This document shows, in pieces, positions 31,854-50,866 of a stretch of DNA of 64,000 nt. The first letter of the stretch is position 1, and each line of letters starts with the position of its first letter. The stretch is taken from assembly GCA_026120035.1 (NCBI GenBank), contig JALRME010000041.1:225658-289657 (forward strand), written 5' to 3'. The notes beneath the pieces were generated by a model. That model saw only the letters and a program-made list of their open reading frames with translations. It was not told the DNA's origin and made no database searches. The position numbers and the translations under genes are program-made. The stretch comes from Coleophoma eucalyptorum (lineage: Eukaryota > Ascomycota > Leotiomycetes > Helotiales > Dermateaceae).

Positions 31854-33332
31854 ATGGCTATCAAATCTGGGTACCAGATTCTAGCTGCCGGCGAGGAGAT
31901 GGATGCTACCAAATACAAGGCAATCCTGGTGCAAATTGCTCGAAATCTCTACTACTACGGTGCACCCAGTTTCATGCAGCCGCGCAGCAACACTATGAAA
32001 AAGGTGCATGCAACATCTTATTTGGATGGGATGCGTGGGGTGGCGGCATGCATCGTTCTCCTTTCACATTACCTTGTCGATGTATATCCAAAGATTACAT
32101 TCGGATGGAATACGGATCTTACTCCAGCCGAAATGCCTAAGTTGCGCCATGCATACGGCGACCCGCCACCATTGCCAACCGACATCTTTCTACAACTGCC
32201 AGTCATACGTATTCTGGTATCAGGAAACGCTATGGTACAATTGTTCTTTGTGATATCTGGATTCTCTGTCTCGTATCGAATGGTCGGCTTATTACGCAGT
32301 GGCCAACAACAACGACTTATGGAGACGGTATCCTCAGCCTGTTTCCGGCGAGGCTTCAGACTTTATCTACCGATTATGGCAGCCATGGTAATGTCAGAAC
32401 TATGGGCTTACTATGGATACTTCAACAATTACCCTAGTCTACTTACACATCCTCCACCTTCCAATACCGTTCGTGGACGCATGGTTCATTTCATAAACGT
32501 GCTAGACCATCTTGTCGCCAATGAGATTTGGCCAGGGTTTGATAGACATGGATACAACCCTCAACTCTGGAGCATTCCTGTGGAGTACAAAGGGTCCTTG
32601 GCAATCTACGCTGCGATAATAGCTCTGATGACTACTCGAGAAATGATCCGACTTACCATCCTGGCTTCAATCGTTGCATATTCATTATACTTGGGCAATA
32701 CAGAGCTCTCGCTTTTCATTTCTGGAATGCTCCTTTCTGAACTTCACCATCGCAAGGCAGAACGTAAACAGCGAGAATCTACCAACACCTTACCTAGTAA
32801 GCTCGAGAGCAGTTTTCAATACTTTCCTCCCACGATAAGGGAGAGGGTTCCGCAATGGGTTACGCAGGCTTTCTGGTGTGCTGCAGCTTTCCTGGGTATG
32901 CACATACTCTCGCAGCCGTACAATGCTAGTGTCACTCCAGGATACAACTGGCTCAATGTGAACTCTGTATCATTCTTATTACACGTAAATGCATGGAATG
33001 TGGTTGGTGCAAGTCTTATGGTTCTCGCTGCGGATAATTGCACTATTATTGAGAGCATCTTTACCACTCCTCTTGCACAGTATCTCGGCAAGATCTCATA
33101 CGCCAACTATTTATTGCACTACACGGCATTTTACGTATTGCGGAATCCAATCATGTTATGGTTTGAAAGAGTTTTGGGTGTACATGAATTGGGCACTTTG
33201 ATGATGTTAGCAAGTCTTGTCGTAGCACCTATGCTGATCTGGGCGGCAGATCTTTTTACTCGGTACGTGGATGAGCCTTCAATTTCTCTTGCCAAGTGGC
33301 TATTTGTAAAGGCTACGCGAGATAGCACTTGA
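31854..33332 (+). CDS. Acyltransferase-3 family membrane protein A
   Basis: A 492-residue intronless multi-pass protein of the acyltransferase-3 family (PF01757), enzymes that move acyl, mostly acetyl, groups from CoA onto sugars or other acceptors at a membrane. Family landmarks: SYLDGMRGVAACIVLLSHY with the conserved Arg61 and presumed catalytic His72; VQLFFVISGFSVSYR near 130; FRRGFRLYLP near 160; the loop block PQLWSIPVEYKGS near 240; and C-terminal YLGKISYANYLLHY near 410. About ten hydrophobic segments follow these. The ATG at 31854 gives a soluble N-terminus of about 55 residues. It is the first of four intact paralogues here and faces acyltransferase B tail to tail across 1.8 kb. A sugar acceptor is likely from the neighbours, but the real substrate is unknown. 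Confidence 0.9.
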   Translation: MAIKSGYQILAAGEEMDATKYKAILVQIARNLYYYGAPSFMQPRSNTMKKVHATSYLDGMRGVAACIVLLSHYLVDVYPKITFGWNTDLTPAEMPKLRHAYGDPPPLPTDIFLQLPVIRILVSGNAMVQLFFVISGFSVSYRMVGLLRSGQQQRLMETVSSACFRRGFRLYLPIMAAMVMSELWAYYGYFNNYPSLLTHPPPSNTVRGRMVHFINVLDHLVANEIWPGFDRHGYNPQLWSIPVEYKGSLAIYAAIIALMTTREMIRLTILASIVAYSLYLGNTELSLFISGMLLSELHHRKAERKQRESTNTLPSKLESSFQYFPPTIRERVPQWVTQAFWCAAAFLGMHILSQPYNASVTPGYNWLNVNSVSFLLHVNAWNVVGASLMVLAADNCTIIESIFTTPLAQYLGKISYANYLLHYTAFYVLRNPIMLWFERVLGVHELGTLMMLASLVVAPMLIWAADLFTRYVDEPSISLAKWLFVKATRDST

Positions 33333-34624
33333 AGCTCTTGATGTGTCATGTCAAACGATATACTGAACACCATGGTACTTGGGCGTTATTTCTGAGCGGC
33401 AGTTCTTTCATGCTGGTACACCTAATAGTTGTCATAGAACAGAAGCAGGCACTTAGCTTCATGACAATGTTCTGTATATAGCTGCTTTTGATAATAGAAG
33501 CAATACGGCCCTCAGCCGAAGCAGCGATGTTAGTGGTATAGAGAAGTCAATTAATGGGTGGTATAAAGGCGATAAGATAATCTTCAAAGTTAATACTTCG
33601 TTCGAAGCCATCTCATTCAAGACTGTGCAGATGCGAGTACAGTCTACTTAATACTAGAACTTTGCTGCAAAGCAAGACCTATAACCACGGCAAATGAAGC
33701 TTATGGTATTTATCAGATCTGATGCGCGATACTACCATGTTTAGTCTTTCCTGCTGATTAATGTTGTCAAAGATGCGAAACAGAGAGAAATCACAGTTAT
33801 TCTGAGCAGAATTCTACACTTTGCTTGGGATGTGCCTACGCTTTGTTTGTATGCCACTGAGTGACACGGATGGTTTATGTTATCATTTCTTCTACTATCC
33901 CCGTTTCTCCTTTCCTCTATAATCACAACCGGATATTCACTTCAATACCACCAATGTTTTCTTACTCTATTAGACCTCGCTCAATTAACTACCTCGGACT
34001 ATGGTACTCCATAATTTTAGCATGGTAGCAGAAACTGGTTTCTTTATCATTCTGCACAGCTATATTTGATACGTTGATAGTATGAAATCAAGAATGGTCA
34101 ATCCATTTACCAGTTTTGCTCTAAGCTTCCCGGGCTTCTAGGCCAGTAAAATAGCCAATATGTTTGGAGGGACAAACTTTAGACAGGAATCTACAGTCTT
34201 ACTATCATTGGTTGCGGAAGGAGGCTTGATTTCAAGGTATGCTAGACATTGTAAAAATACCTTTATGTTATAATAAACAAACAAGCATGAGAAATTCAAT
34301 GCTAATATAGCGTTATGGAGAACATAATATCTATCATAAGACGCAATATGCCTTATTAGTACAAATTTTAGCTTTGTGGCTCATAAGACCTACAAGGGAG
34401 AGACTTTTCCGAGCACGTCACAAAATTCAGAGCAACTTCATCAAAGAGAGGTATCAACAGAAGATAATGGTAGCTACCAATGACTAGGCGGAGTACAAGC
34501 AATATTGGAGTACACAACTCCCGAATGTGCAATTAACGAGAAAGGCTTTGAAGTAAGATGCAAACTTGATGATTACTAACCATATAGCTGCGAAAGGCTG
34601 AACCGGAGTACCAAAAGAAAGAGA
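33333..34624. other. Intergenic between convergent acyltransferase genes
   Basis: AT-rich, no gene seen. Confidence 0.45.
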
Positions 34625-34905
34625 AATAACTTAGTGGTGTTGGTCTACCTCTTATTTCCGATGTAAAGACAGGTCAAAAATGTGAGGTAAAAAAATGTAG
34701 ATGCTCCTTCTAAGTGAATGTCATGGAGGTCATTATCAATACCCTCATTCTGTTTGTAGTACAAACAGAATAGGTACTGATAAAGATCTCCGTAGTAATA
34801 CATCATTACAAACAAGCGGTGTTTTTAGCAGGTACAAACACGGGTACAAGCAGGTGATATTCCAACAGTGGGAAGCAAAAGCAAATATTCGCGTGACGGT
34901 TTACT
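34625..34905 (-). repeat. Dispersed repeat with a 25-nt palindrome, copy 2
   Basis: Inverted relative to copy 1 at 10292-10570. The palindrome attctgtttgta / centre / complement is perfect at 34747-34771. Flanking blocks match copy 1 in the same order, with scattered substitutions and small indels. Confidence 0.65.
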
Positions 34906-35146
34906 TCTACCTATCACTAGTACCATATATATATATACTGAAATCTTTATTAACACCATCACTCAATTACAAGTTTCTGTAATATAAACTTATCCCCGTA
35001 CGACATGTATAATATCCCATCACATCAAGCAACTCAAAACATGATCAAGGAACAGCTCAATGGCATATGAACCCATTGCTTCTCAATCCGCTATTTCTGG
35101 TTCTTTCCTCATCTTCTATGTACATATTTTCTTAAAGTGTCATTGA

Positions 35147-36658
35147 TCAAATACACCTCTCTCTCGGAGATCTTGGAGAAGCATTGGAATATGTCTCGAT
35201 CGTTTGACAGAACCACTTAGCAAAAGTGACAGAGCTATTGTCTATCAGTCGCCAGAAGATATCCGACAACCAGATCGTGAGAGGTACCAAAATAAGGGCG
35301 CCATAGAAATGCTGCATTCCTTTCGAGGTCCCTGGTGATACCTGCGAAATCTTTGCCTGGAATGGGTAAAACACAGCAATTATCAACGAGTAGTGGGTAA
35401 GATAGAAAGCAAAGGAGATTTTGCCTAGGTACTGCGGTAGCGGGCCAGTGAATAACGATTGTAATTCTTTGCAATTATCGACACAGTATATGAGTCCGAA
35501 CGACCCAATGATATGATAAAAGTCATCGTTGATAACCGGAGAAGAAGAGCTGTTTGGAAGCCACTTATACCCGGGGCTTGCTTCAGGATTGATAGGTCGA
35601 GATAGTATATAAGCGCTGGTCAGCGCAAACCAAGTCCAGATGCCTGTGGATAGCCAATCTGGTATTTTCTTCAGTAGCCGCGCGTATGCTTTCAAAAAAG
35701 GGGGGGTCGGCCTTGATGTTGTCTCCAAGTGAATCAGGTATTCGGTGTGCTCTGCTCTCAAATGGTGAAGCTCTGCCAGAAATGACCCGCCTAGGAAAAG
35801 AGCACAGAAGGGATTAAGCTGGCACACAGCCCACACGATTTGAGCTGCTTTCATAGGCAATCGATATCGTGTTTTCGTCTTTGCGAAGGCCAAAATAGTG
35901 ACGTAAACCACTAGGGAATTCCTGTACTCGATAGGTATGGTCCACATTTGTGCATCGTAACCAATGTGCGTGATGCCATCAGGCTCGATCCTTGTAATGA
36001 CTTCTGCTACTGATGACCACCAATGCTCGACAAAGGCCATGACTGTTTCGTCTCTTGGGTGTGGTTTAGGAGGAACGTGTACGAGACCCTTGAATCCCAG
36101 ATAATGTGATATCATGGCCATGAAAATGCACGGAAGAAACAGCCGAAAACCACGTCTGAAGACCGATGAATACAGATTTTCGAGTAGCCGACCAGGCTTT
36201 CCACTCCGTGCGAGCTGAAGTGGCCGGTATGATATCGCAAAGCCAGATATTACAAAAAATATTCGTACCATCGCCCCTCCAGAGATGAAGAGTCGGATTA
36301 AAGGTAGCTGGAGATACGTTTCCTTACTTGGGTCACCAGTAAGATATCCATATTGGCAGCGCAAGTAGCCACGGAGAAGAAAGTGAAAGACGCATACGAT
36401 GAAGGCTGCGACCCCACGAAGACCATCGAGGTAGGCCGTGGGATGAAGTACAGCCCGTGGGCTTGCTGGAGCGCCTATCTTAAGAACAAAACTTGGTAAA
36501 ATACCTCGAGCTATTGACTCTACTTTGTTCTTCAACACATAATCCATGGTGGTTGCAGATACGGTGCCTTCCAGCTCCACGTCGGCCAAGGAGTCACAGG
36601 TAATAGCATGTTGCGTTTTGTAAGGCAAATGTTCCGTGAAGTCGAGAAAGCTGGCCAT
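35147..36658 (-). CDS. Acyltransferase-3 family membrane protein B
   Basis: A 503-residue intronless paralogue of acyltransferase A. It has AYLDGLRGVAAFIVCVFHF with Arg81 and presumed catalytic His92, VRIFFVISGFAISYRP, FRRGFRLFLP, the loop AQMWTIPIEYRNS, and YLGKISFAFYLTHY near the C-terminus, with about ten hydrophobic helices in total. The ATG at 36658 gives an 75-residue soluble N-terminal part. The presumed reaction is O-acylation of a glycan at an internal membrane. It is closest in motifs to A (both have RRGFRL and an IPxEY loop), which suggests they are an older duplicate pair. There is no sign of frameshift or missing motifs. Confidence 0.9.
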   Translation of the reverse strand: MASFLDFTEHLPYKTQHAITCDSLADVELEGTVSATTMDYVLKNKVESIARGILPSFVLKIGAPASPRAVLHPTAYLDGLRGVAAFIVCVFHFLLRGYLRCQYGYLTGDPSKETYLQLPLIRLFISGGAMVRIFFVISGFAISYRPLQLARSGKPGRLLENLYSSVFRRGFRLFLPCIFMAMISHYLGFKGLVHVPPKPHPRDETVMAFVEHWWSSVAEVITRIEPDGITHIGYDAQMWTIPIEYRNSLVVYVTILAFAKTKTRYRLPMKAAQIVWAVCQLNPFCALFLGGSFLAELHHLRAEHTEYLIHLETTSRPTPPFLKAYARLLKKIPDWLSTGIWTWFALTSAYILSRPINPEASPGYKWLPNSSSSPVINDDFYHIIGSFGLIYCVDNCKELQSLFTGPLPQYLGKISFAFYLTHYSLIIAVFYPFQAKISQVSPGTSKGMQHFYGALILVPLTIWLSDIFWRLIDNSSVTFAKWFCQTIETYSNASPRSPRERCI

Positions 36659-38263
36659 GGTAGATACTGGGGTGAGATTTCAGGTGATTGAATAGTTCCT
36701 GACTGGGAAGTCATAGATGGAAGGTTGATGTCAAAAGAAAAGGGTACCTTGCCCCGAACAACCTCGAGCCTCCTTGGTATTCGAAAGGCCAATAATGCTG
36801 ACCAAATTTCACCGCTTGATTCTTTGGCGTTCATTCAAAGTTTACGCATTCCCTTGCTTGCAGTCCCGCACGATTTACTATTGCGCAAAAGTCCTTATCA
36901 TGATGTAAGTGGCAAAAGAGTGTAAACTTAAGTTCTAATCCCGGTTATTCTACTATAATCTAACCGTTCTAGCTACAATATCAATCTATGCACCACCCAA
37001 TACAACTACCCGAAAACAGTGACTGAAATCCAGCTCGGTAGAAATCTAAGGCCCAGTCAAAAAGGGGTGGAATAGCGGTGCCTTGCATGTCACGTTCCAC
37101 AACGTAAGAAGTATGTAAAACTCAAAATTGCCCTCACTTCCCGGAGATTAACTTGCTATCGGCCATGGTTTTAGACTCTTGAAAATTTGCGGCTATAACC
37201 TGATTTTATGAAGTTAAAAGTTAAAAAGGGCCCATAGACTCAAGGCTCTAAATCTAGACTATATCTCCCTACAAACTTGCTTTGCTGTCTATGTGGCTTG
37301 TAAAATTACAAAGATATACCAAATTATTCTGGTGCACACATGGTTTACATAATATTTACTGCCTGACTGCCAAATTACGCAAGCAAACTTAAACGATACA
37401 GAAACGAAGGAGACGCTTCTATTGCTTTCTCGGACTGATTGGTCCTATGCATAGAAGCCAAGTGCAAACTAAACACCAATCCGGTTCGCTTATCTCTCCC
37501 AGTAATTTTGAGTGCGTCAAACCAAAGCAACAGCCTGTCTTTGTCAGGGTTCTCGATGTCGTCAACGGACTATGGCTACTATTCCTACCGTCTCGCAGTA
37601 ATTGGCCGATTTTGAAGACGGAGAGCTTTCGGTCTGAAAGGCATGGGTGCGATGCTAACAGCAGCTTAGCGTGTACTGTACTAATACCCCGATCAACATT
37701 CCGGGTATCAGGGCAGATGGCTTTAACATTCCCAATAAGCGCACCAGCATGATTTTGTTGATACTCAAAACTTTGCCTATAGAAATTCTGTGGCATAATT
37801 ATCTATAGATACGATTTGGTCTTCGCGAGCTCGAAGATCTGCTCGTATAAGTTTGTCTAACGGTGTGGTCGAAATAGAAAGGTTCGTTAAGATCATAACG
37901 AACTGCTGGGTTTAATGGCCAAGTGCAATGAAAACCTACGAGCTTGGCATTAGTATTAGTTGCGTCCGTCTGATTAATTTGAGCCCGCGGGGTCCATAGG
38001 GGAGTCTGGAGGCGATAAGGCGAATGGAACAGAAAGAGATCTTATTCGCCTCAAGAAACTCTATATATTTGTAAAGCTAGCTACCATAGCAAGACTCTGT
38101 CTTTATGACCGGGAAAAACACTGTATGTGTTCAAAGTTCTGGTATTAATAAAATTATCGCAGAGTAATTCATTTCAGCAATATATCTTCCACGATTGGTT
38201 ACTCCGGTGATAGATCAAAATATAGTCTCATATTATACAGTGGTAACCTTTGGTCACCAAATT
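36659..38263. other. Intergenic
   Basis: No recognised gene. Both strands are open for about 100-125 codons at 37419-37796, but neither translation resembles a known protein. Confidence 0.4.
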
Positions 38264-39868
38264 CTAGTTCGTCCTAACAGTTACTCTTCTTAATAGCAAT
38301 CGCGCAAAGCTGTTGCTCCAGACATCTAAAGTTAAAGAAAGACCATAAGCAACCAATGCAGCTATAACATATATCAGAATAGAGGCAAGACCTGTTGAAA
38401 CCAGATGCTGCCATTCTGTTGTGTTACCAAACCAAGGAGCTGTTATATTAAGCCAAAAATACCAACCGACAGTGTGTATAATAGCTCCATGTACCAAGTA
38501 CAGCATGAAAGAAATCTTCCCCAAGAATCTGCTGGTTTCTGTAGTGAAAATTGCCTGAAGACATTCAGAATTACTGATAGCAAGCGTTACATGCATAGCA
38601 GAGGTCAGAGTCCCGTACAGGTCACCAATCTTTTGCGTTGAGCCAAGGTTGTACAAAGCAACGATGAAATTCAAGATCCAAAAAATATTCAGCAGACAGT
38701 CGCCACCTTTCGTTGTAGCAAGAAACCGAGCGCAGCTGATCATCTGCGACTTGCACCTCTGCCGTAAATCTCCCGTAGGTCGTTGCTGTGGTACCAGCTC
38801 TGTTTGGAGCATTGTCCTAATATCCGCTTCCCATGTTTGACGGCAAAAGTGTATCTCAGCTAGTAGCGTTCCTCCAAGGAATGGCGCCATAAGTAGATTA
38901 TTGCTATGAAGCAATAATACAAATATTGCGCATAGTATCGGTAATCTGAAACGAACACAAGATAGGGCGAGTATAGTCGTGAATACTATCATTGATCCAC
39001 GAAATTCGACAGGGATAGTCCAGACATTTGGGTCGTATGGCGGTGCATAGCTAATTCCTGGAGGAAGCGGTTGAAAAGATTGCATGGGATCCGAAAGTTG
39101 CCAGACGTTTGCCCACCAATTATTCAATTGCATAGAGAGTGTGTCGAACTTGGGCGGTTGACGATGTCGGCCCATAGGTCCCATTCCATTATATAACCCA
39201 ATGTAGCTTGCAAGCATATCCCCAAACAGAACAGCTAATGTAGGCACATATAATCTCATCCATCGCCGAAAGACAGAGGAGCTTAATGAAGTCAAGATTT
39301 TTTGCTGCTGCCTTGTGTGGCAGTGACGAAGGGAACCGAGACTGATGGAGAATCCAGATACAACGAAAAATATTGCAACCATAGCAGGGCCAGCGTTCCA
39401 GAGGCAGACTGGCGATACGCCTGCGAACCATCGCGCGTATGAGAATAACACATTTTCGCCCACTCTCGGCGGCATAAAGAATTCAAAGGCGATATCAGTA
39501 TGGTGGAAGACCACAAACACACATGCTATACCACGAAGTCCGTCGAGCCACTCCGTTGAATACGTATTCTTCTTCTCAAGCTTATTTAGAAGTGCGAGGC
39601 CTGCATAATCACCAAAACGCAGTTTCAAAACTTGAACTGTTTTCGATAAGCACTTCAGGACGAGGCCAACCAAGGAAGTTCCTTTGTCGATTTCATAACT
39701 GTTATTGACCCTGGTAAAATGGCTGGGACTATCGTCGATATGAGGAGATCGGTTGGTGTCATTGTCGACTGGAGAACCTGCAAAGCTTGGAAGTATATCA
39801 TACGAGTAGCTTTCTGACGATTGTTTCTCATAGCTGTCTGACGATTGTTTCTCAGAAGCATGGGACAT
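38264..39868 (-). CDS. Acyltransferase-3 family membrane protein C
   Basis: A 534-residue intronless acyltransferase-3 paralogue. Landmarks are EWLDGLRGIACVFVVFHHTD with Arg112 and presumed catalytic His122 or His123, VAIFFVVSGFSISLGS, FRRWMRLYVP, NVWTIPVEFRGS and FLGKISFMLYLVHG. The N-terminus carries a short tandem duplication, EKQSSDSY then EKQSSESY at residues 6-21, from a 27-bp DNA repeat, and a Ser/Asp-rich tail of about 65 residues that would face the cytosol. A decayed duplicate of this gene lies at 62536-63785. It is divergent from the glycosyltransferase gene at 40783 with 0.9 kb between the starts, so the two may share a promoter region. Substrate unknown; O-acetylation of a sugar is the family's usual activity. 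Confidence 0.9.
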   Translation of the reverse strand: MSHASEKQSSDSYEKQSSESYSYDILPSFAGSPVDNDTNRSPHIDDSPSHFTRVNNSYEIDKGTSLVGLVLKCLSKTVQVLKLRFGDYAGLALLNKLEKKNTYSTEWLDGLRGIACVFVVFHHTDIAFEFFMPPRVGENVLFSYARWFAGVSPVCLWNAGPAMVAIFFVVSGFSISLGSLRHCHTRQQQKILTSLSSSVFRRWMRLYVPTLAVLFGDMLASYIGLYNGMGPMGRHRQPPKFDTLSMQLNNWWANVWQLSDPMQSFQPLPPGISYAPPYDPNVWTIPVEFRGSMIVFTTILALSCVRFRLPILCAIFVLLLHSNNLLMAPFLGGTLLAEIHFCRQTWEADIRTMLQTELVPQQRPTGDLRQRCKSQMISCARFLATTKGGDCLLNIFWILNFIVALYNLGSTQKIGDLYGTLTSAMHVTLAISNSECLQAIFTTETSRFLGKISFMLYLVHGAIIHTVGWYFWLNITAPWFGNTTEWQHLVSTGLASILIYVIAALVAYGLSLTLDVWSNSFARLLLRRVTVRTN

Positions 39869-40782
39869 AATGATGCTTGTGTTAAAAAGAAATCCGAGAG
39901 AAAGACTTTTGTTGTGCAGCTATGGTGAAAGGACTGGTCGGACCTACACCATTTTCCTGTTTGCGGTCTTTATAATACAGATAGGTATTCAATGACTTCC
40001 ATGACACTTGCCAAGGCCCACATGGAATGCTCTTTAAACCTGATCCCAGCATGCTTGCCAGCGATTTGATACCACTAAATAATTACCTTCGTTCTTCGGA
40101 GGACAACTGAACCGATGAGGTAGGTAGCTCTCTAGGTAAGGATAAAAGTACATTTTAATTATTCCGCTTTCATCCCAGAACCTTAATCACAAGTGCTCTA
40201 ATCTCCTCTCTCAATAAGAGAGTCGTGATGCCGGATGCTTCGGCCAGGCCTTAGGGTGGCGTGAGGCTGCGACTGCTGAATTCAGCTCTGCGGAAGGCTG
40301 GTCGCTGAGATGTTTCCGGACCATCTAGAATAGTAGTGGAATGATTGCAGGGAGATTCGCATTCTTAGGATTAAACTAGCGACCGTGGCACCGTGCACAT
40401 TAAAGTATGACTTAGGCACTGTGCCGAGACAGGAGTTCTATCAAGGAGAAGGACGCTTAATATTTGACGGCTACGACCAAACTGATCTGGTGTCTTGCCC
40501 TCAGTGAGGGCGGGTGGTCTAAATTCCTCTGTGAATCATTTTTAGTGAATTTAGAGTTTCGTCTCTTCAGGTATTTCCAGCGGTTACCTAAGCACGGAAT
40601 GGGAAAGATATGGAGTGAGACTCCCTAGGCAAGGCCCTCAAGGGTTTAGGGAAGAATGGCGAAGGAAAGGGGTCAAGTGCTTTGAGAAACAAAAGGCTTT
40701 ATTATGGAAATGCACTGATTACGGTCAACGCAAGCAGGCACTCAACAGCCCTTCAACTTGGAAATTGAGATCTAGTGTTGCA
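39869..40782. promoter_or_regulatory. Divergent intergenic region, acyltransferase C and glycosyltransferase
   Basis: 914 bp between two divergent starts. A minus-strand TATTATAAA at 39968-39976 sits about 100 bp before the acyltransferase ATG. The right part stays open in the glycosyltransferase frame up to 40615 but has no in-frame ATG before 40783, so it is treated as 5' leader. Confidence 0.4.
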
Positions 40783-42138
40783 ATGATTCTACTCGCAGAT
40801 TCCCGGCTGCAAAGCTCACGAACATTCAGTCAGCGTAGGCTAATCGCCGCTGCAGTTATTTCTGGTTTCATTATCTTGGGTCTGATAACACGCCTTGATC
40901 GAATACCGACCTCGATAAATGTTGTATGGCCTACTCATTCACCCGCATCGTTAAAACAACAAGATAGAGAATTGAAGGCTCTATGCGACAAAACGGACTG
41001 GACCCCAGGACTCTGGATACACTGTCACAGTGGTGCTGGTCCGAATGGAACAGCAATGAATGGCGGGCTCAACAATGCTCGCAATCGTTTACAGACGTGT
41101 CTTCGACTTGCCATTGATGCTGGCTCTGGCTTGATTATTGGCACCACGATGACAAGAGATCCTAAAAATCTGGTTAACACATCAGACTTAGAAGTTTGCC
41201 CAGATACATTCTTCAACATGGCAAATATGGAAATCCAACTACAACAAATCTGTCCACAGCTGAAGTTGAGACACTGCAGTGATTTAAGCGGTATAACTAC
41301 TGTGTTAAAACCTCCCCATAAGCCATGGCAAGCACCCAGTTTTATGTATGGCCAATTCAAGAACTGGCTTCAGCAGAATCTAGATACTGTCACCTACCGT
41401 ATTGATAGCTCGGCGATTAGCCCATCGAGCCCTGTGGCCGTGGACTTTGCAGATTCGTACAAAGGATGGAACTATCGAAAATCAAAGGAGCTGTCTACAA
41501 TACGGAAGAGTTTGTTTCGAACGCTGGAATACAACCCGGAACTCCTTGCTATTGGAGAAGAGTTGCAGAAGAGTCCACAGCTCATAAATGGCTACATTGG
41601 TATTCATCTTCGAGGTGAAGCTGACTGGCCGGCAGGATTTGGAGGGTTGGAGGTTCAGATGCAACTCTACATTGCAGAACTGACGCGGATCTCGGTCCAA
41701 AACACGCAAAATTCCAAATTTCAAAAGACGATATTTGTCAGCTGTGGCTCCGAAGAAGCTATCCAATTGTTTCGCACAAAGATTGAACCCCTCGGCTTTG
41801 AAGTCCATAGTAAGATCAGCTTACTGAGAGCGCTTGATCTTGACAAAGCTACAGCAGTCGAAGCTCTGAACTTCGATTCAAGAGCCATTGTGGAGTACGC
41901 GGTACTCGTCAAAGCGGATTATTTTTTGGGGCTAATCATGTCCACATTTTCCTCCCTCATAGCCTTTGCTAGAAGTCTAAACATGGAGGAGGATTTCTTT
42001 GAAGACTATGTTTTTCCTGGCAGCGTGCGGCTACCAAACAGCATACAACGCCACTACCCTGTAGCAGAAATGAAAGGAGATAATAAAACTATGCTGTTGG
42101 TAGTTAATGGAGATGATGTAATGGACTCGTTTCCTTGA
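40783..42138 (+). CDS. O-fucosyltransferase-like glycosyltransferase
   Basis: A 451-residue intronless type II membrane protein. After a short basic tail, residues 19-37 form a membrane anchor (LIAAAVISGFIILGLITRL), then a Golgi lumen domain. The block NGGLNNARNRLQTCLRLAID (93-112) matches the GGLNN/QxR signature of the protein O-fucosyltransferase superfamily (PF10250), and IHLRGEADW (274-282) sits where these GT-B enzymes have the donor-binding HxR motif. A C-terminal SSLIAFARSL block corresponds to the last nucleotide-binding segment. Donor and acceptor cannot be told; GDP-fucose is a guess from the family. Start: the first in-frame ATG is at 40783. It lies tail to tail with the nucleotide-sugar transporter 333 bp away, which supports a shared glycan role. 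Confidence 0.75.
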   Translation: MILLADSRLQSSRTFSQRRLIAAAVISGFIILGLITRLDRIPTSINVVWPTHSPASLKQQDRELKALCDKTDWTPGLWIHCHSGAGPNGTAMNGGLNNARNRLQTCLRLAIDAGSGLIIGTTMTRDPKNLVNTSDLEVCPDTFFNMANMEIQLQQICPQLKLRHCSDLSGITTVLKPPHKPWQAPSFMYGQFKNWLQQNLDTVTYRIDSSAISPSSPVAVDFADSYKGWNYRKSKELSTIRKSLFRTLEYNPELLAIGEELQKSPQLINGYIGIHLRGEADWPAGFGGLEVQMQLYIAELTRISVQNTQNSKFQKTIFVSCGSEEAIQLFRTKIEPLGFEVHSKISLLRALDLDKATAVEALNFDSRAIVEYAVLVKADYFLGLIMSTFSSLIAFARSLNMEEDFFEDYVFPGSVRLPNSIQRHYPVAEMKGDNKTMLLVVNGDDVMDSFP

Positions 42139-42471: not shown

Positions 42472-43566
42472 TTATGCAGTCGTCGTCCTCCAAACCTCCA
42501 TACTCAGAAATCCCACAACAAGTATACAAGCCAAAACCTTTGTGGCATCCGGCGTGAAAATTTTTGATCTTGAATTATCCTTATTACAATTGCTAGCATC
42601 CAAATGTGCCAGATCCTTGTCCAACGGCTCCTGGACATAGAAATTATATGTCCAGAGGCTTATACACACAATTCCACCTCCTAAGACTTTCCAAAAAGTG
42701 ATGGTTTGGGCTCGAAGCTCTGGCAGTACTATGTACTGGCTGATGGCAATCGTGATCAAAGATGCGGCCGTACCAATAAGCTTGAGTATGTTGTCTTTCG
42801 CACGCAGCACTGTTGCAACTGCAAAACCGGTGCAAGCTGTAATGATGACAAGGAGACTCATAGGGAAAACCAAAGAGGTCGCGGCTTCGGAGAGGCTGGC
42901 GCTGTTTGTCGGGATGAGAGGATAAGCAATGACAGAGAATATGAGGCCAAAAAAGTAAAGACATGCTTGGGAAGCCCAAAAATCACCAATCTTTGTCATC
43001 TTCTCTGTATTTATGCTTGCAAGTGCAGACAAAATGGCGATAGTTAGGCCTGCTGATGGTGCAATATACCATGCTGAAGCGTTTTGAGCGTCGGAAGTAC
43101 GAGATGGAATATTGAAAAGAATGAGACCTAAACAGAGGAATAACAATGAAGTCCAAGCGTAAGGATTTCTTTGTCGAGAAATCATATAATGGTGGAGTAT
43201 GCTTGTTGTTGGCAGCTTCATAAGCATGCAAACTTGCAGCAGACTTGGAGTTGTATGCGGTAGTACCATATAATATATCAAGTTGTTGACGAGATACAAC
43301 GCGGCTGGTGTGGCATATTGAAAAATGGTTCTAATTGAAGAACCAGATTTGGAGATCTCTAATGGTGATATGGACGACTCAAACGATATTCTGCGGTTGG
43401 AGGAGAGGAACAGCACTGCAACACAGAGCTTGATCGCTTCGGAGAGCGCAGCGACGAGAGCTGCTGAGATTTGGGGATAAGAGTGAAATACGTGGTATGC
43501 ATAATTAGCTCTTACAGTCTCGCAGGTGACGAAGAGGATGAAGAGAAATGAGGATGAGGGTGCCAT
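42472..43566 (-). CDS. Nucleotide-sugar transporter (UDP-galactose/CMP-sialic acid type)
   Basis: A 364-residue intronless protein with about ten hydrophobic segments of the nucleotide-sugar transporter family (PF04142), which exchanges cytosolic nucleotide sugar for lumenal nucleoside monophosphate across the Golgi or ER membrane. Family blocks: ALVAALSEAIKLCVAVLFLS, ATPAALYLVNNLIYYMVL, LLQVCMLMKLPTTSILHHYM, the SALASINTEK motif, and AVATVLRAKDNILKLIGTAA in the C-terminal half (compare 'KYADNILKGFATS' in characterised members). The last 50 residues include an acidic/Asn-rich cytosolic segment and a final helix. I start at the ATG at 43566; the upstream in-frame codon at 43572 is GTG. Specificity cannot be read from sequence; UDP-sugars are the commonest substrates. 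It is divergent from the GT92-like gene and supplies the logic for a lumenal glycan pathway. Confidence 0.9.
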   Translation of the reverse strand: MAPSSSFLFILFVTCETVRANYAYHVFHSYPQISAALVAALSEAIKLCVAVLFLSSNRRISFESSISPLEISKSGSSIRTIFQYATPAALYLVNNLIYYMVLPHTTPSLLQVCMLMKLPTTSILHHYMISRQRNPYAWTSLLFLCLGLILFNIPSRTSDAQNASAWYIAPSAGLTIAILSALASINTEKMTKIGDFWASQACLYFFGLIFSVIAYPLIPTNSASLSEAATSLVFPMSLLVIITACTGFAVATVLRAKDNILKLIGTAASLITIAISQYIVLPELRAQTITFWKVLGGGIVCISLWTYNFYVQEPLDKDLAHLDASNCNKDNSRSKIFTPDATKVLACILVVGFLSMEVWRTTTA

Positions 43567-44069
43567 TTTCACAATTTGAGGGGCGATTGCCTCAAAAGTC
43601 TCGGACGGATGTAGGCATTGTGATATTGAAAATCTTGCGTTGTTTTTCTATCTGGAAGATAGGTAAACCTTATCTCAAGTGAACAGCAAACCTTACTCCA
43701 GGTATTTCTGGAACTATCTTATGGCGAAATCCTTACTACAAGCCACAGTATTTCTTGAGAATGTTGAGCCTACCAGAACCCAAATAATGCGTGCCGCGTA
43801 GAGTAAGGGAGAAGGAGTAAGCGAGCTAGGTTTGTTTCCGCATGCAACTTTGACTTAGCTCGCTTGATGCGTGTGATGGATCATACTCCTGTTCACCAAT
43901 ACCCTGGTAGACTGCTACAAAGGACCACAGGGATTGACGTAAACAGACTTGAATGAATTAAAAAAAAGTATAATAAAGTTCGCGAGGATGTCTAGTTCGC
44001 ACCCAAGGGTTGCGAGACAAGCTAAATGCGAGTTGGAGAAAGGGTTCGAACCTCAACTGAAACTCAGAT
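43567..44069. promoter_or_regulatory. Divergent promoter region, transporter and GT92-like gene
   Basis: 503 bp between two divergent starts. No firm TATA box or operator was identified. The short spacing is consistent with co-regulation. Confidence 0.4.
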
Positions 44070-45461
44070 ATGAGTAAAAAACTTATATATGTCTCTTTCA
44101 CTCATTATTCTGATGTTGAGAAAACGGTGTGGCTTCTTGAGAGGTACATAATGCTCCGATCGCAGATTATAGACACCAGGTGGGCTGGGCTACGGTCAGT
44201 CCGCTGGAAAGTGATCATCATCCTTCTTTTTTCTCTGGTCTGCCTACATTATACGATTGAGAACATCTCTTCGTTCACGTGGGAGAGAGTAGCTATCATC
44301 CCGTCGTTATCATCTGGGCCCATTTCGTTATGGAATGGAGTCCGACCAGACGCAACAATAATGGACGAAGGATCGCCTGGTACCCATTTGGCATCGGCGT
44401 CAGGGTTGGTAACCATTCCTGATCAACAAATAGAGCAAGGGAAAGAGAAACTAGGAGGTGAAATTGCACAGAGCTTGCCTGCTGTATCCATGTCATCTAC
44501 TACCCTTTCTGCCTCAGTTACGAGTAATGCTTCACCAGGAACTTCCCAGAATGGGGCAGCATCGCCTACAGAAACTGCACAAAATCAGCCTACTACAACT
44601 ACATCTTTGAGCCCATCTCAGTCTTCAAAGGTCATTACTACCGCCAACTCCACTAACGAGTATATTGCTATCTGTATTGCGATAAAAGATCAGCGGCAAG
44701 ACCTCAAAGAATGGATGATACACCATTACCACCATCTTGATATTCGTCGGTTCTACATTATGGACGATGGATCCGAACCTCCTCTCTCGGTAATGAAAGA
44801 TGAAGAATTTGGCATACCACGTTCGGCTGTGACATTTAATTATCAAGACCGAGCGACGCGAGACCCGAAGATGCAACTGGCATTCTATGACCAATGTTTG
44901 CAGAAATATGGCGCACTACACACATGGATAGCTTTCATCGATGGAGATGAGTTCCTTGAAGTGAGTTCGCCAAACGAGACATTCCGGCACATTTTGGAGG
45001 AGTTCGAACACGATGAGAGTGTAGGAGGGCTTGGCGTTCAATGGCGAATGCATACCTCCTCAGGCTTACTCAAGAGGCCCGAATCCGTACGCAAAGCATT
45101 CACAACATGCATCTTCGATGATGAAGAAAACGATGGGTTGAATTCCGATAACAGGCATGTAAAAAGCATCGTGAAGCCTTCTAAGGCCCGTGGTGCGTCG
45201 AATCCACACATGTTTTGGCTACAGGCAGGTTATCGCAACGTCGGAGAGCACAATGATACAATCACAACCATGGCCTGGCGACAGCCGATCACGCGGGATC
45301 GGCTAGCATTGCATCACTATGCTCTAAAGAGTCGGGAGGAATATGAGGAGAAGATGAGTCGTGGCAATGGGATGACAGATCCGAAAGGGAATGCATTTTG
45401 GGACCGCATAGAGAAGATGCCTCATGTTGGTTGTCCAGAGATGTCCATGTATGATCCATAG
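44070..45461 (+). CDS. GT92-like glycosyltransferase, type II membrane protein
   Basis: A 463-residue intronless protein. Residues 47-61 (WKVIIILLFSLVCLHYT region) form the membrane anchor, followed by a Ser/Thr-rich stem to about residue 195 that is probably heavily glycosylated. The catalytic domain begins with EYIAICIAIKDQRQDLKEWM, then HHYHHLDIRRFYIMDDGSE, the DxD motif in WIAFIDGDEF (about 286-295), GGLGVQWRMHTSSG, and the C-terminal LALHHYALKSREEYEEKMSR (His-His-Tyr motif). This order is that of the DUF23/GT92 and Glyco_tranf_2_4 group of GT-A enzymes, whose characterised animal members are galactosyltransferases. The sugar here is unknown. An inner ATG at codon 28 could be the real start, since it would place the anchor about 19 residues from the N-terminus. 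Confidence 0.85.
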   Translation: MSKKLIYVSFTHYSDVEKTVWLLERYIMLRSQIIDTRWAGLRSVRWKVIIILLFSLVCLHYTIENISSFTWERVAIIPSLSSGPISLWNGVRPDATIMDEGSPGTHLASASGLVTIPDQQIEQGKEKLGGEIAQSLPAVSMSSTTLSASVTSNASPGTSQNGAASPTETAQNQPTTTTSLSPSQSSKVITTANSTNEYIAICIAIKDQRQDLKEWMIHHYHHLDIRRFYIMDDGSEPPLSVMKDEEFGIPRSAVTFNYQDRATRDPKMQLAFYDQCLQKYGALHTWIAFIDGDEFLEVSSPNETFRHILEEFEHDESVGGLGVQWRMHTSSGLLKRPESVRKAFTTCIFDDEENDGLNSDNRHVKSIVKPSKARGASNPHMFWLQAGYRNVGEHNDTITTMAWRQPITRDRLALHHYALKSREEYEEKMSRGNGMTDPKGNAFWDRIEKMPHVGCPEMSMYDP

Positions 45462-46728
45462 GTACACTTTTACGTTGGTAAAGTGGTAATGGGCCTATAT
45501 GAATATGCAATTACAAGTAACATAAGCACTTCTCTTCTATACAAACTTCGTAGTACTAAACTCGACGGAAAATATTGTTTCGTATCACTCCATCAGGATA
45601 GAATTTCACCCACAATATTCACAGACTACTGTTTGGAGAGATATCAACATCGTGACTTCCTTTTAGGAGAGGTTGCTATTCAGAACATAGTAATTCTCTT
45701 TAGCTTGCATTCAATAAACATAGGGATTTAGTATCTGAGCCGTCTAATTAATTTCCTCTAGTCCTCGTGCGGTGAATTGGACACTCTATTCAAATAATGC
45801 CAAAGATTAGTTAGAACACGCAATCTCATATTCACTACTGCTTATTAAATGCAATTAAGTATTGGTATACTAAGGTAACGAGCAATATCCTTCACACACA
45901 CTGAATTTGCTAACCGGTGATTTTGTAGCTCTCAGTAGATTTACTTGTATTGAGCACGATAACGAGATGACGAGCATAATCAACCTAAATCCCTGGCTTT
46001 AAACTACTCGTGGAATTTTTCATAAATCCCAACCTCTGTTTCGAAGATCTTTGCAACCTCGGCTCAATCCTTGCATGGGTTTTTCTGTGGCCTTCAACAG
46101 CACCTGAAAAGAACTCTGCCAGAATGAAGCCTGCTTTCATTTGACGCCACCCCTTTTTCAGAGTGCCATCTCTGCCTCTGCTTTTGACTCATTCTATTTT
46201 TGCGACTACAGTTTCTGCAGCGATTGCAGAGTGCCCGGAGTCGGCACTGTCAATGGCGAGGTGACTGAGGAAATGGTGCAGGCTGATGCCTATGGAACAG
46301 TTCAAGACGTCTTGTTATATTAAAGAGGTCTCACAATATATAAACTATCGCCAACTAAAAATTACAGCAAGGTATTATATATTATTTAACTCTCAAGAGT
46401 ACAGGTAGATGTCTTTCAGGGCTGCTCAGACACAAGACTTCATCATGAGTTAGATAGTATCCAACATTCTTAGAGTATACACTAAGTATCTCAGACAGTA
46501 CTATAAGTCTCAGAGTTGATTGAAGATATTAGGCAGCTAGTGGCACCTTTAAAACTCACAGTCAGGAGTACAACTGTCCCTTCCCTACCGACTAGAAGCT
46601 TATACTTGTATTTATATTGTCGGAATGATGTTACTTCACAGTGATTATGTGATAATATCACATGGTCATATACGCGAGAGGGGTACGTCCCCTTTTTGAC
46701 CTCACATTTGATAGATAGAATAGGAACC
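45462..46728. other. Intergenic
   Basis: No recognised gene; an unassigned ORF of 60 codons lies at 46141-46323. Confidence 0.4.
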
Positions 46729-47205
46729 ACCTACAACACTGCATTGCTCCATCAATTATTAGGGGAACCCAGGTGCTACTTGAGTAACAGAAACATTCTA
46801 CCTGGATAGAGACGCCCTTTGATGCAAATCCGAGTATAGCTGACTTGCAATTGTCAATTAAAACCTCAATATCAGAACATATTGGGTAGGTCGCAAGTGA
46901 GCCTACGGCTGTTATCGTTGGATTTGCTGTGTTACTTGGCGGCTTGGTGGACTCCTTTGCTTCAACATCCCCGACGCTACTGCAGAAACCTTCCAAGGAA
47001 CTAGGTCGCTATAGAGAGATGGAGCTGCGGTTGAAACGTATTTCGCACATATCTCCAAGGCACTGTCAAAATTATCGAGGAACTAATGACGTGCTACTAT
47101 ATCACAGACATGGTGCTTGGTTTGAAGCTCTCAAAATTTCCCAGCCAGGAGTTGCTGATTCATAGAAGCTGGTCCCATAGTCGATGCACGAACAGCTAGG
47201 ATCTG
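46729..47205 (-). pseudogene. Decayed two-domain cysteine-rich secreted protein gene
   Basis: One minus-strand frame shows two copies of a Cys-rich domain common in fungal secreted proteins. The first reads SFYESATPGWEILRASNQAP then CL-stop-YSSTS, and after more stops reaches SSLEGFCSSVGDVEAKEST. The second reads YPICSDIEVLIDNCKSA, VECFCYSSSTWVP and IIDGAMQCC. The shared pattern is (C)ESATPGF..L..SxQAxCLCYSSSxWxP..FDG...C. The stops in the first copy (TGA, TAA, TGA, TAG) and a lost ending make it a pseudogene. The signal peptide is not readable. The family is widespread and of unknown function. Confidence 0.55.
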
Positions 47206-48383
47206 ACCCGAATATGGCGGTCGATGTAGCTCGTATCTGCATATTTTTTCCTTCGGCAGTATGGATCCAAATAATTCGTGTGCTGTTTGAAGGCCATTGT
47301 TTCATTGATGGATAGGCATTGATTGGGATGTAAATTAGAGCCTGGCGATGAAGGAGAGACATTTGGATTTGAATTGGTGGTTATATAGCTAGGTACCTAG
47401 CTAAATCACGAGATAATCATGTATTTGTGAATAGATATGCAGCTGCAAAAAGAATACTGAACCTCCTAGCTAAGCGTGCCCGAGGGATTGGGTTCGAGCT
47501 TCAATAACGATACAGTGTAGAATGAAAACTCTTCCATATTAAATATTAATGGTTGCTGTGGATTTATGGGCTACATGCAATACATACAAGTAACTCCACA
47601 AGGTACTATCATCATATATGAGGTCTGCCAATAAATTTCAGAAAAGCCCTGTGTAGGCTACCATGTCTCAAACAAGTTATATATAGTACATATATTCTAT
47701 CCATACACAAGTCGTAACTTCGCATCGTATAGTACGTGGGCAGCTGCAAAGAGGAATTCCAAAAGAGAGGGGGGGTTGTAACCTTCTGCTTCACCTCCAC
47801 CTGTTATTGGCTTGGTTATATATCAAGGTTTCAAATATGCAGCCTCCAATCCGGTTTCCATTTCGTAGGAACATTATGCAATCATAAACCTTAACTTCTA
47901 TGCTGCTTCTAGGAAGTCGAGGTAGATTTTTGCGTGAGATTGCTAGTGAGGATTCTATAAACTACATACTAGCACCTTATATATACGACATGCCTTAGAG
48001 ATCTCAACAAGGCCCACCACAGTTTATTAAAAAGGGTGTGCACAAACTTCCAACTTCTGCCTCCCTCCTCATTACATAACTAATGGCACAGTTCCAAACG
48101 AAATAAAGTTATTAAGTCACCGCGTTTGAATGGGTCGGTACACCCTATTTAACCAGGCAACACTATATTTTCGCCAAACCCGGGAATGCGACCATAATTC
48201 CAGAAGATCAAAGGGCGACTGCGGGGCTTTAATACGTTAAATTATGCATGTATGTACATGATTTCGAGTGGACGCCAGATAATGCAAGTGTCTCTAATCG
48301 CGATCGGAACAAACTCAAGCATCGATACCTACAGCCATAGCTCAAGTCTTCACATTCAACCATGTATATATACAAGCGCGGTA
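47206..48383. other. Intergenic
   Basis: No gene recognised. Confidence 0.4.
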
Positions 48384-48786
48384 ATGGCTAATTATCCTGA
48401 GCCCGAGGAGGAATTCGGTAATATTGATTTGAGTGGACGTCGAATAAAGAGGGAAGAGCACCCGCTTAGAGTTCTAGCTTTCGTGTTCTATTTCACTTTT
48501 TCATTACTAGTAGTCAACTTCCAAGAATTAAGGGTACTACTACCTAGGCTTTTGAAGTTTAACAATATATATAGAATTTGAAATGGAATTCACTTCAGGT
48601 CTTTAAATTCAACCTTCCACACATACAAACGGAGCCGTGGGTATCTTGAACCAGAAGACGATTTCAGTCACAATTATTAAAGTGAACACCAAACAAGGCA
48701 AGCAGATCACGACAGCTCGACTACCCACATAAGCAAACATGACCATGGATATCTTAAACCAGAAGATGACTTGTATATAGAAGATT
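48384..48786 (+). repeat. Imperfect repeats encoding a Y-x-x-PEDD-like motif
   Basis: Three plus-strand copies of a short peptide motif: NYPEPEEEF after the ATG at 48384, RGYLEPEDDF near 48636, HGYLKPEDDL near 48744. The last two belong to a 48-bp direct DNA repeat with a period of 108 bp, an exact multiple of three, and are in the same frame, separated by one TAA. Dibasic sites (IKREE, YKRSR) lie beside copies one and two. It could be the remnant or part of a small repeat-protein gene. No signal peptide, intron model or neighbour enzyme confirms this. Confidence 0.3.
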
Positions 48787-49252
48787 GAGTACACAGCTAT
48801 TCTGAAATATAGGTCTTAGTTGTCACTAAATTAGCCTTAAGAACATATTATGTGATTAAATTCACTCTTTACCCACCTAACCTAAAGGTGCTTCGGTGGC
48901 TTAAAGTGTTCTCACCTGCAGCAGATCGTCTAAGCAGGAGTCCACCGAGACGAAAAGCCACATATTCGCTGTTGAAAGAGCCTCGGCACCTTGCGGAGTA
49001 AGTAGATACGGCGATTTCGTTTATCAATTGCTTGTAAGTCACTCACCTATAATAAGTAGCTATTGACATTAGGTAAACTATACTTATACATATAGGTATA
49101 TACAAGTAATAAGGGAATTAGAAGTGTTCTTTTCGTCCAACAACAGAAGCAGTAGAGTGAAAATTACGTAGGTAATCTATAAATCCCATTATAATAAGAA
49201 TTATTCTAAATTTGTAACCTTAGCTCTAATCTAAAAAGCACCCCCTTCTTAT
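48787..49252. other. Intergenic
   Basis: AT-rich, no gene seen. Confidence 0.45.
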
Positions 49253-50866
49253 TTATTCTTTTCTGAAACATTTTTCAGCAACCCACTTACCAAATGATAC
49301 AAGCCTTGTATCTACTCCTCTCCAAAACAGATCAGCAACCCAAATACACAAGAATGTATTTACTAGTATAGCGATATAAAATCCACCTGAGGTATTGTGC
49401 CAACGAAAATAAATACGAGAGCCAACTGTTCCTAAGACATAATAATGGGTTACATACAAGGCGAAGGATATTTTCCCTATATACTGTGCAAAGTGTGTTC
49501 GGAATGGCCGTTGTAGAAGTGGTGCTGCTGATTCGGAAGACGGAGAGAGAGAAATTGCAGCTACCAACGCAGCAGCACCAACATCGACCCAAAACCTCTG
49601 TGGTGAACCATATGTAAGAGGTGTCCATACTGTCAGAATTTTGTACCCCGGTGTAGATTCTGCGTTTGAAGGAATAGCTATGACGTGGAGGCTTAATAGT
49701 GCTAGAGTAATACTAATAGTATGTAACCCGACAAAGAAGTATGCAGGATGGGATTTTTTGAAAGCTGCGTAGCTATCTTCTTTGAATAGGTCGTGTTGAA
49801 TAAATTGTAAATCGGCCAAGAGCATACCAAAAAGGAATAGCGATAATTCCCATTGTCGTATCCACGCTGTATACCAACAGGAGAAGATTATGAAACTGAC
49901 TCGAATTATATTACGTGTCTTTGCGAAGCAGATTAAAACCAGATAAATAACCATTGATCCCCGAAATTCCCTTGGGATAGTCCAAAGTTGGGGGCCATAT
50001 GGTGGAAAATAAATATGGTCTGGGTCGAAAGACGCTGTCGGATTACTCATAGTAACAAATGCCCACCACCAATCACTCAACTGTGCAAAAAAGGATCCTC
50101 TAGAGGCTGGACCAGTAACTGGAGCAAGGTTTATCCACAAATTTTGCCATGATATTAACATAGTAATAAATGTAGAAACCATAGTGGGGAGGAAGAGACG
50201 GAACCATCGACGGAACACGGAGGATACCAGAGATGCGAATAATGTAACAGAGTCTCCGCTTCGAATTTTCCGAATTGGGCTACAGCTAAGAGCATATCCC
50301 GATATAACGAAGAACAAAGCCACCATTCCGGAACCACTGACAAACATTCGAATAAATGATATTTGGAAAGGAGAGTAGTTCCCTGGGCTACTCGCGAAGC
50401 CTTGTCCTGAAGAGGGCCACCATGGGTACATGAAGTGACCTATATAGACTAACAAGGCGGCAAATCCTCGTAAACCATCGAGCCATGATGTTGAATGAAG
50501 CTTCCATTTATAGTCGTAAGAAGGTTGGCAGAAACTGGGGGCTAGCGATAGCACGGACAGAAGAAAGGTCTTCGTTTCGTATCTCGAAATCACTCGCAAA
50601 AGCTTCACGCGCGATTGTCGCAACCTCCCTCGCAGTCCGGATTCTTCGCATTCGAAGTTATAATTTTCTCGCTCGTGTGTCGGTAATTGTAATGAAGAGC
50701 AAGATCCCGCGTCATCATCCGAATCGTTCATAGCCGGAAGGAGCATAGCAAGCTCTACATCTTTTAAGTGTTTTGATGAAGAGTAGGATCCTGTATCGTC
50801 GTCCGAATAATCTGTAGCTGGAAGGAGCACAGCGAGCCCTGTGTCTTCTATGCGTGAAGCCATCAT
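49253..50866 (-). CDS. Acyltransferase-3 family membrane protein D
   Basis: A 537-residue intronless acyltransferase-3 paralogue. Landmarks are SWLDGLRGFAALLVYIGHF with Arg133 and presumed catalytic His144, VALFFVISGYALSCSP, FRRWFRLFLP, PQLWTIPREFRGS and YIGKISFALYVTHY, with about ten hydrophobic helices. The N-terminal 65 residues hold a direct duplication: LAVLLPATDYSDDDTGSYSS and LAMLLPAMNDSDDDAGSCSS with a 28-residue (84-bp) period. The acidic/Ser repeat would be cytosolic and may be a phosphorylation or sorting region; that is inference. The FRRWxRL and REFRGS variants place it nearer protein C than A or B. It is separated from the GT92-like gene by 3.8 kb of repeats and a pseudogene. 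Confidence 0.9.
   Translation of the reverse strand: MMASRIEDTGLAVLLPATDYSDDDTGSYSSSKHLKDVELAMLLPAMNDSDDDAGSCSSLQLPTHERENYNFECEESGLRGRLRQSRVKLLRVISRYETKTFLLSVLSLAPSFCQPSYDYKWKLHSTSWLDGLRGFAALLVYIGHFMYPWWPSSGQGFASSPGNYSPFQISFIRMFVSGSGMVALFFVISGYALSCSPIRKIRSGDSVTLFASLVSSVFRRWFRLFLPTMVSTFITMLISWQNLWINLAPVTGPASRGSFFAQLSDWWWAFVTMSNPTASFDPDHIYFPPYGPQLWTIPREFRGSMVIYLVLICFAKTRNIIRVSFIIFSCWYTAWIRQWELSLFLFGMLLADLQFIQHDLFKEDSYAAFKKSHPAYFFVGLHTISITLALLSLHVIAIPSNAESTPGYKILTVWTPLTYGSPQRFWVDVGAAALVAAISLSPSSESAAPLLQRPFRTHFAQYIGKISFALYVTHYYVLGTVGSRIYFRWHNTSGGFYIAILVNTFLCIWVADLFWRGVDTRLVSFGKWVAEKCFRKE

Follow-up and report, generated by a model that had tools for sequence, protein, structure and literature searches.

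The 64,000-nucleotide stretch of Coleophoma eucalyptorum analyzed here (the window) holds seven intact genes within 19 kb, which we read as a partly conserved Coleophoma cluster for a glycan pathway of the Golgi lumen, with an acylated chain that perhaps contains galactose. We give this reading an even chance. Judging from locus tags and contig sizes, two related species seem to keep much of the gene set linked, and for this reason an acylated sugar chain is probably the product.

Gene content of the window

The first-pass annotation had proposed seven intact genes of named families within 19 kb, and the coordinates, open reading frames (ORFs) and Pfam scores agree with it. The features are the following:

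31854..33332, + strand: AT1, acyltransferase-3 membrane protein, 492 aa (PF01757, 82.8 bits)
35147..36658, - strand: AT2, acyltransferase-3 membrane protein, 503 aa (PF01757, 65.1 bits)
38264..39868, - strand: AT3, acyltransferase-3 membrane protein, 534 aa (PF01757, 61.8 bits)
39869..40782, no strand: divergent intergenic region between AT3 and the O-FucT-like gene, 914 bp, a possible shared promoter (from gene coordinates)
40783..42138, + strand: O-FucT-like glycosyltransferase, POFUT-fold, GT-B, 451 aa (PF10250, 42.6 bits)
42472..43566, - strand: NST, nucleotide-sugar transporter, 364 aa (PF04142, 91.4 bits)
43567..44069, no strand: divergent intergenic region between NST and GT92, 503 bp, a possible shared promoter (from gene coordinates)
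44070..45461, + strand: GT92 glycosyltransferase, 463 aa (PF01697/PF13704, 38.2/38.6 bits)
49253..50866, - strand: AT4, acyltransferase-3 membrane protein, 537 aa (PF01757, 80.5 bits)
62529..63746, + strand: decayed AT3 relative close to the contig end, broken into pieces whose frame changes (tblastn with AT3)

All seven genes are uninterrupted ORFs, use both strands and score over their Pfam cut-offs (31 bits for PF01757, 31.5 for PF10250, 27 for PF04142, 23 for PF01697, and 27.5 for PF13704). They had also been described as intronless. This holds for all seven, but it is not special to them, because genome-wide the listed PF10250 places (all seven) and the majority of the PF01757 places lie in single open frames too.

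The genome contains 19 PF01757 places, merged to 17 loci by counting two C13 pieces as one and excluding the decayed window copy. Four loci in 19 kb have a uniform-placement probability of about 7e-7, under a model that ignores tandem duplication and post-hoc choice, and such clustering was reached in 0 of 200,000 simulations with the same placement and the same simplifications. Recent tandem duplication of one acyltransferase was rejected, as the window copies are 26–36% identical. At most of the other acyltransferase loci, the scanned neighbors (one to three larger ORFs each at 12 of 13 loci, C13 excluded) are not glycosyltransferases; PF04488 was found at two stretches beside these loci, and the remaining neighbors belong to unrelated families or have no match. 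No PF01757 match lies close to any of the other six O-FucT loci, and the four neighboring ORFs scanned at three of these loci included no glycosyltransferase and no acyltransferase.

Most other nearby sequences had been called decayed, which is right in part, for the AT3 relative, a possible MFS remnant and AT-rich repeats. The two main pieces of the AT3 relative (about 62.5–63.7 kb) are 62 and 52% identical to AT3 by tblastn, and it scores 30.2 bits for PF01757 and has one internal TGA. The possible MFS remnant, at 29.9–30.2 kb, reaches 25.8 bits, below the cut-off of 33.4, and an AT-rich, RIP-like repeat stretch lies at 52–58 kb. The ORF scan covered all 35 non-overlapping window ORFs of at least 100 aa, from which intron-split genes could escape. 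Outside the seven genes, cut-offs were exceeded by DUF3405, Ferritin_2, Phosphoesterase, Zn_clus, Fungal_trans, and a LITAF-like zinc ribbon; no polymerase, flippase or acceptor gene was recognized by Pfam among these 35 ORFs.

Apparent linkage in related fungi

Among the matches listed, the nearest named proteins come from Coleophoma, with 75–87% identity. In C. cylindrospora, GT92 (BP6252_11072), O-FucT (BP6252_11074), and AT2 (BP6252_11076) are all on a contig sized 1669527, and in C. crateriformis, GT92 (BP5796_11933) and AT1 (BP5796_11938) are both on a contig sized 835590; equal listed size was assumed to mean the same contig. When the tags are taken as running numbers, their spacing is as expected for a collinear order AT1-AT2-AT3-OFucT-NST-GT92. 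These six genes, the unseen ones included, would then be collinear in the two species. No NST or AT3 ortholog was seen in other Coleophoma (for AT3, among the best 120 of 218 matches). Scattering in relatives had been named as the observation that would speak against a cluster. Instead, tags and contig sizes fit linkage of GT92, O-FucT, and AT2 in C. cylindrospora and of GT92 and AT1 in C. crateriformis, and AT3 and AT4 gain no such support.

AT1 is 78% identical to C. crateriformis BP5796_11938, gapless over 492 aa, and AT2 is 83% identical to C. cylindrospora BP6252_11076, gapless over 503 aa; close relatives of these two were found only in Coleophoma among the matches listed. The best 120 of 218 acyltransferase matches include nothing close to AT3 or AT4, so synteny backs two of the four acyltransferases (AT1 and AT2). 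None of these 120 has AT3 as its best window match, and the top-scoring listed relatives of AT4 are 37–41% identical. Between AT4 and GT92 are 3.8 kb without a recognized gene, and AT4 is only possibly part of the cluster. Its distance to the RIP-like repeats is about 1 kb.

The acyltransferase tree had 62 rows: the four window proteins, 11 of 13 other loci of this genome and 47 of the 120 listed matches, leaving out a partial locus (C101:91916) and the split C13 locus. AT1, AT2, a paralog of this genome and the two Coleophoma proteins group in a 100/100 clade that excludes AT3 and AT4. AT3 keeps its motifs on a branch of length 1.9, and its placement and that of g_C19 and g_C79a are unsure because of very long branches. 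A dead copy was rejected as a reading of C79c, the closest AT2 paralog, which has YFVVSGF in the alignment and retains the other motifs.

We compared by eye the 52 rows of the O-FucT list with the best 120 of 205 GT92 matches and found four contig coincidences (1669527, 149105, 8067, and 1122397). Beyond Coleophoma, among these listed matches, Lachnellula hyalina has relatives of both enzymes on an equal-sized contig (149105), and a metagenome contig of 8,067 bases holds both together. The coincidence at 1122397 says little, given the length of that contig. Differently sized contigs carry the listed O-FucT and GT92 relatives of Venustampulla, L. suecica, and Cudoniella, and the O-FucT rows of Botrytis and Sclerotinia have no partner among the best 120 of 205 GT92 matches.

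Enzymes and proposed pathway

The lumenal location, order of action, donors and acceptor given here are inferred. In the proposed pathway, NST would import a nucleotide sugar; by sequence, the solved structures closest to it belong to CMP-sialic acid transporters (6i1r, 6oh2, and 6oh4). GT92, membrane-anchored and with a galactan-synthase fold, would add a hexose, most likely galactose to judge from its family. The POFUT-fold enzyme would attach another sugar, which may be a 6-deoxyhexose, for example rhamnose instead of fucose. AT1 and AT2 (AT3 probably too) would take acyl groups from acyl-CoA in the cytosol and transfer them across the membrane to the chain or its carrier. The Golgi lumen is suggested by the presence of a nucleotide-sugar transporter with two membrane-anchored glycosyltransferases.

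The GT92 gene is the only PF01697 match found in the genome. Its product has a GT-A fold, a DxD motif, one hydrophobic segment (41–59) and a low-confidence stretch at about 74–193 of the predicted structure. The model resembles the plant galactan synthase GalS1, itself a GT92 enzyme, with 14% identity over aligned residues. The structure alignment included the window protein and 53 of the 120 listed matches (the best 120 of 205). By sequence, the PDB returned only phosphatase rows at E about 0.2.

The O-FucT-like enzyme has a GT-B fold, an HxR motif and one hydrophobic segment (20–38); its structure alignment included the window protein and 43 of 52 matches. By sequence, it matched POFUT1 in the PDB at E 0.011, ranked under two unrelated calcium-channel rows, and identity to animal POFUT1/POFUT2 is 13–18%. 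The family name given in the first-pass annotation stands, but fucose as the donor may be wrong for this genome. Unlike the animal setting, GDP-mannose dehydratase (gmd) scored 57.1 bits against a cut-off of 415, at a 4,6-dehydratase locus, and fucose salvage (PF07959) scored 25.6 against 34; exon-by-exon matching lowers both scores, and controls were over cut-off in 6 of 14 and 1 of 14 cases, respectively. One gene resembles dTDP/UDP-glucose 4,6-dehydratase, scoring below its bacterial-model cut-off. Because of these results, the enzyme may use a donor other than GDP-fucose. A PF04321 gene (C101:643 kb) was rejected as a second UDP-rhamnose step, its best match being methionine adenosyltransferase 2 subunit beta. 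UDP-rhamnose use has been proposed in another ascomycete for putative rhamnosyltransferases of Sporothrix (PMC9145935), whose five candidates matched PF00201, PF04101 or PF03033 and not PF10250. A more specific version, which we regard as unlikely, is a lineage-specific fungal glycan pathway in one cluster: the POFUT-fold enzyme switched from GDP-fucose to UDP-rhamnose and works with a GT92 galactosyltransferase that has its own transporter, and several of the acyltransferases act at different positions of a rhamnose/galactose glycan.

All four window acyltransferases present the DxxRx10H, VxxFFxxSG, RxxR, and SxxxY motifs, and their PF01757 match is nearly full length. A plain hydropathy scan gave three to five segments for each, where the family expectation is ten transmembrane helices, and a PDB search with the acyltransferase-3 profile gave no match at E 1. 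Membrane acyltransferase-3 proteins acylate glycosyltransferase-made glycans in bacteria, as proposed here, with xanthan GumF/GumG and O-antigen OafA/OafB as examples (PMC2824669, PMC9558356). Unlike these systems, the window set is eukaryotic, includes a nucleotide-sugar transporter, and has no SGNH domain matched and no polymerase or flippase recognized. In Cryptococcus, Cas1p is likewise a fungal 10-TM acyltransferase that acetylates a glycan, in capsule O-acetylation (PMC2824669); it belongs to PF07779 and has an N-terminal esterase domain, whereas the window acyltransferases matched PF01757 only.

Alternative explanations and significance

The lumenal glycan pathway read from these genes at first is in part strengthened by the apparent synteny in two Coleophoma species and in part weakened by AT3 and AT4, without close relatives among the listed matches, and by the upstream regions, where no exact word of 8–10 bases was common to at least four of five (random sequences gave a mean of 0.36 for 8 bases, and 0). 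Further points against it are the lack of a recognized polymerase, flippase or acceptor gene in the 35 ORFs, the differing contig sizes in Venustampulla, L. suecica, and Cudoniella, and the neighbors scanned at the other acyltransferase and O-FucT loci. The missing common word and the use of both strands would suit a chance neighborhood with no common pathway, which the tag and contig agreement in two further species and the clustering test make improbable. A somewhat better case can be made for GT92, NST, and O-FucT being an older glycosylation module, beside separate acyltransferases that act on different substrates and came together in a plastic stretch with repeats close to the contig end. 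Linkage of O-FucT and GT92 may extend beyond Coleophoma, all listed close relatives of AT1 and AT2 are from this genus, AT3 is long-branched with a decayed relative nearby, and AT4 neighbors RIP-like repeats. However, AT1 and AT2 share equal-sized contigs with the module in two other species, and the acyltransferases are not one local group in the tree; we consider this explanation rather doubtful.

It is also unlikely, slightly more so, that the window enzymes tailor a natural product, decorating a glycolipid or small molecule with a core that genes at another place in the genome provide. Fungal acyltransferase-3 proteins do occur in natural-product clusters (PMC12423673), secondary-metabolism genes neighbor some of the O-FucT subfamilies of Dikarya (PMC10481521), and Coleophoma species are described as makers of echinocandins. 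Against it, the 35 window ORFs of at least 100 aa gave no match to a synthase or oxidase family, in a scan that intron-split genes could escape, and the transporter and anchored glycosyltransferases suggest the Golgi lumen.

A narrowly worded search of the open-access literature found no description of a fungal cluster with this content. As a glycan cluster, it bears on the role of O-FucT in fungi whose GDP-fucose route is incomplete, a question that PMC10481521 leaves open. Few eukaryotic acyltransferase-3 proteins have been characterized so far, according to PMC9558356, and two such enzymes tied to glycosyltransferases, in a genus where a genetic system is reported for C. empetri (PMC8417879), would allow their acyl acceptors to be tested directly by genetics.

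Gene content of the candidate cluster

The seven genes that the first-pass annotation had proposed as a glycan-assembly cluster were confirmed at their places and are intact: each consists of one open frame and scores above its own Pfam cut-off. They lie in the following order.

AT1 (+), acyltransferase-3 membrane protein (PF01757)
AT2 (-), acyltransferase-3 membrane protein (PF01757)
AT3 (-), acyltransferase-3 membrane protein (PF01757)
O-FucT (+), POFUT-fold glycosyltransferase (PF10250)
NST (-), nucleotide-sugar transporter (PF04142)
GT92 (+), glycosyltransferase family 92 protein (PF01697/PF13704)
Gap of 3.8 kb between GT92 and AT4, in which no gene was recognised
AT4 (-), acyltransferase-3 membrane protein (PF01757)

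AT3/O-FucT and NST/GT92 are divergent pairs, and the window ends where its contig, C37, ends. All four acyltransferases contain DxxRx10H, VxxFFxxSG, and RxxR together with SxxxY, which PMC9558356 and PMC12423673 name as motifs of the acyltransferase-3 family. A profile search of the 45.3-Mb genome found 19 places matching PF01757, which were merged into 17 loci plus the decayed copy of the window; 4 of these 17 loci fall inside the 19 kb of the cluster. Genome-wide, PF10250 matched at seven places and GT92 at one.

Other parts of the window hold a DUF3405 gene with a very strong match (4156-5448, 491.5 bits), a Ferritin_2 domain protein with a weak mucin-like match across a low-complexity stretch (13999-15240), and an apparent Zn2Cys6 transcription-factor gene in pieces, possibly with introns (58977-61431, Zn_clus and Fungal_trans). 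The region 27001-29000 displays a strong AT skew (0.216) and no recognised gene.

Relatives in Coleophoma and beyond

Among the matches listed, the closest named relatives of O-FucT, GT92, AT1, and AT2 were Coleophoma proteins. In C. cylindrospora, O-FucT is 87% identical to BP6252_11074, AT2 83% to BP6252_11076, and GT92 78% to BP6252_11072; in C. crateriformis, AT1 is 78% identical to BP5796_11938 and GT92 75% to BP5796_11933. The contig size is the same for the three C. cylindrospora genes (1669527), and also for the two C. crateriformis genes (835590). Counted from GT92, the locus tags step by 2 to O-FucT, 4 to AT2, and 5 to AT1. If locus tags run in order, these steps reproduce the gene order of the window with one gene per missing step, and we infer that NST and a gene at the place of AT3 are present among the missing Coleophoma tags.

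The reading of all seven genes as one set was upheld in part: tag and contig agreement supports synteny in relatives for GT92, O-FucT, AT1, and AT2, but AT3 and AT4 had no close relative listed. The search for acyltransferase relatives keeps word-sharing candidates only, and 120 of its 218 matches were listed. AT3 was the best window match of none of these 120, and the best-scoring ones for AT4 were 37-41% identical, with no ortholog-close match among them; given this scope, the result does not prove that orthologs of AT3 and AT4 are absent.

Outside Coleophoma, relatives of O-FucT and GT92 lie on equal-sized contigs in Lachnellula hyalina (149105), Rutstroemia BVV2 (1122397), and one metagenome contig (8067), whereas in Venustampulla, Lachnellula suecica, and Cudoniella they lie on contigs of differing size. 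The O-FucT/GT92 pair may thus be an older module, and the two acyltransferases AT1 and AT2 may have joined it later.

Acyltransferase relationships and other loci

In the tree, AT1 and AT2 grouped with one paralog from contig C79 and the two Coleophoma proteins in a clade with full support; outside it, AT3 and AT4 sat on long branches. Genes of the PF04488 (GT32-type) family adjoin acyltransferase genes in two other stretches of the genome, and most other acyltransferase loci scanned had no neighbour of this type. No PF01757 match lay near any of the other six O-FucT loci in this genome.

Related loci and repeats
C101, about 447 kb (stretch L026): acyltransferase-3-family gene beside a PF04488 (GT32-type) gene
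C79, about 1.046-1.054 Mb (stretches L027/L028): about 8 kb holding two acyltransferase genes and a single PF04488 gene
Window, 62529-63746, near the contig end: decayed AT3 relative, 52-62% identity in the main pieces, with frame changes and a stop
Window, 55090-55980, inside the RIP-like AT-rich stretch: repeat of about 0.9 kb, with copies at many genomic places

The stretch from 52 to 58 kb of the window is AT-rich, with RIP-like dinucleotide indices. One copy of the 55090-55980 repeat lies at C79:1042 kb, close to the C79 acyltransferase stretch. At L026:5719-9858, a 1380-aa open frame with protein kinase and HET domains adjoins the acyltransferase gene.

Possible sugar donor and predicted product

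For the O-FucT-like enzyme, nothing in the genome scored above the cut-off for GDP-mannose 4,6-dehydratase (the sole match, at C68:782 kb, reached 57.1 bits vs. 415), and the fucose salvage family stayed below its cut-off in the genome search. The C68 place matched the dTDP-glucose 4,6-dehydratase model in two pieces (184 and 106 bits; cut-off 365), and its closest PDB entry is 6vlo, a putative dTDP-glucose 4,6-dehydratase. Botrytis converts UDP-glucose through a 4-keto-6-deoxy intermediate to UDP-rhamnose, according to PMC5698552. Together, the dehydratase and salvage scores and this route make UDP-rhamnose a plausible 6-deoxy donor. However, the second enzyme for its synthesis was not identified, and PMC10481521 regards GDP-fucose synthesis as probable in some Dikarya and raises the question whether another dehydratase could substitute. 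The same paper links S-T-F residues to GDP-fucose binding, and their partial retention at positions 387-389 of the window O-FucT also argues against UDP-rhamnose (S in 37, T in 24, and F in 14 of 44 rows; these positions were paired with the POFUT numbering by motif, in our own matching). GDP-mannose or another sugar nucleotide is a possible donor as well.

Overall, the cluster is real. Two of its acyltransferases, AT1 and AT2, are tied to it by the apparent synteny; membership is likely for a third and doubtful for the fourth. It is probably a conserved cluster whose predicted product is an acylated glycan or glycoconjugate.
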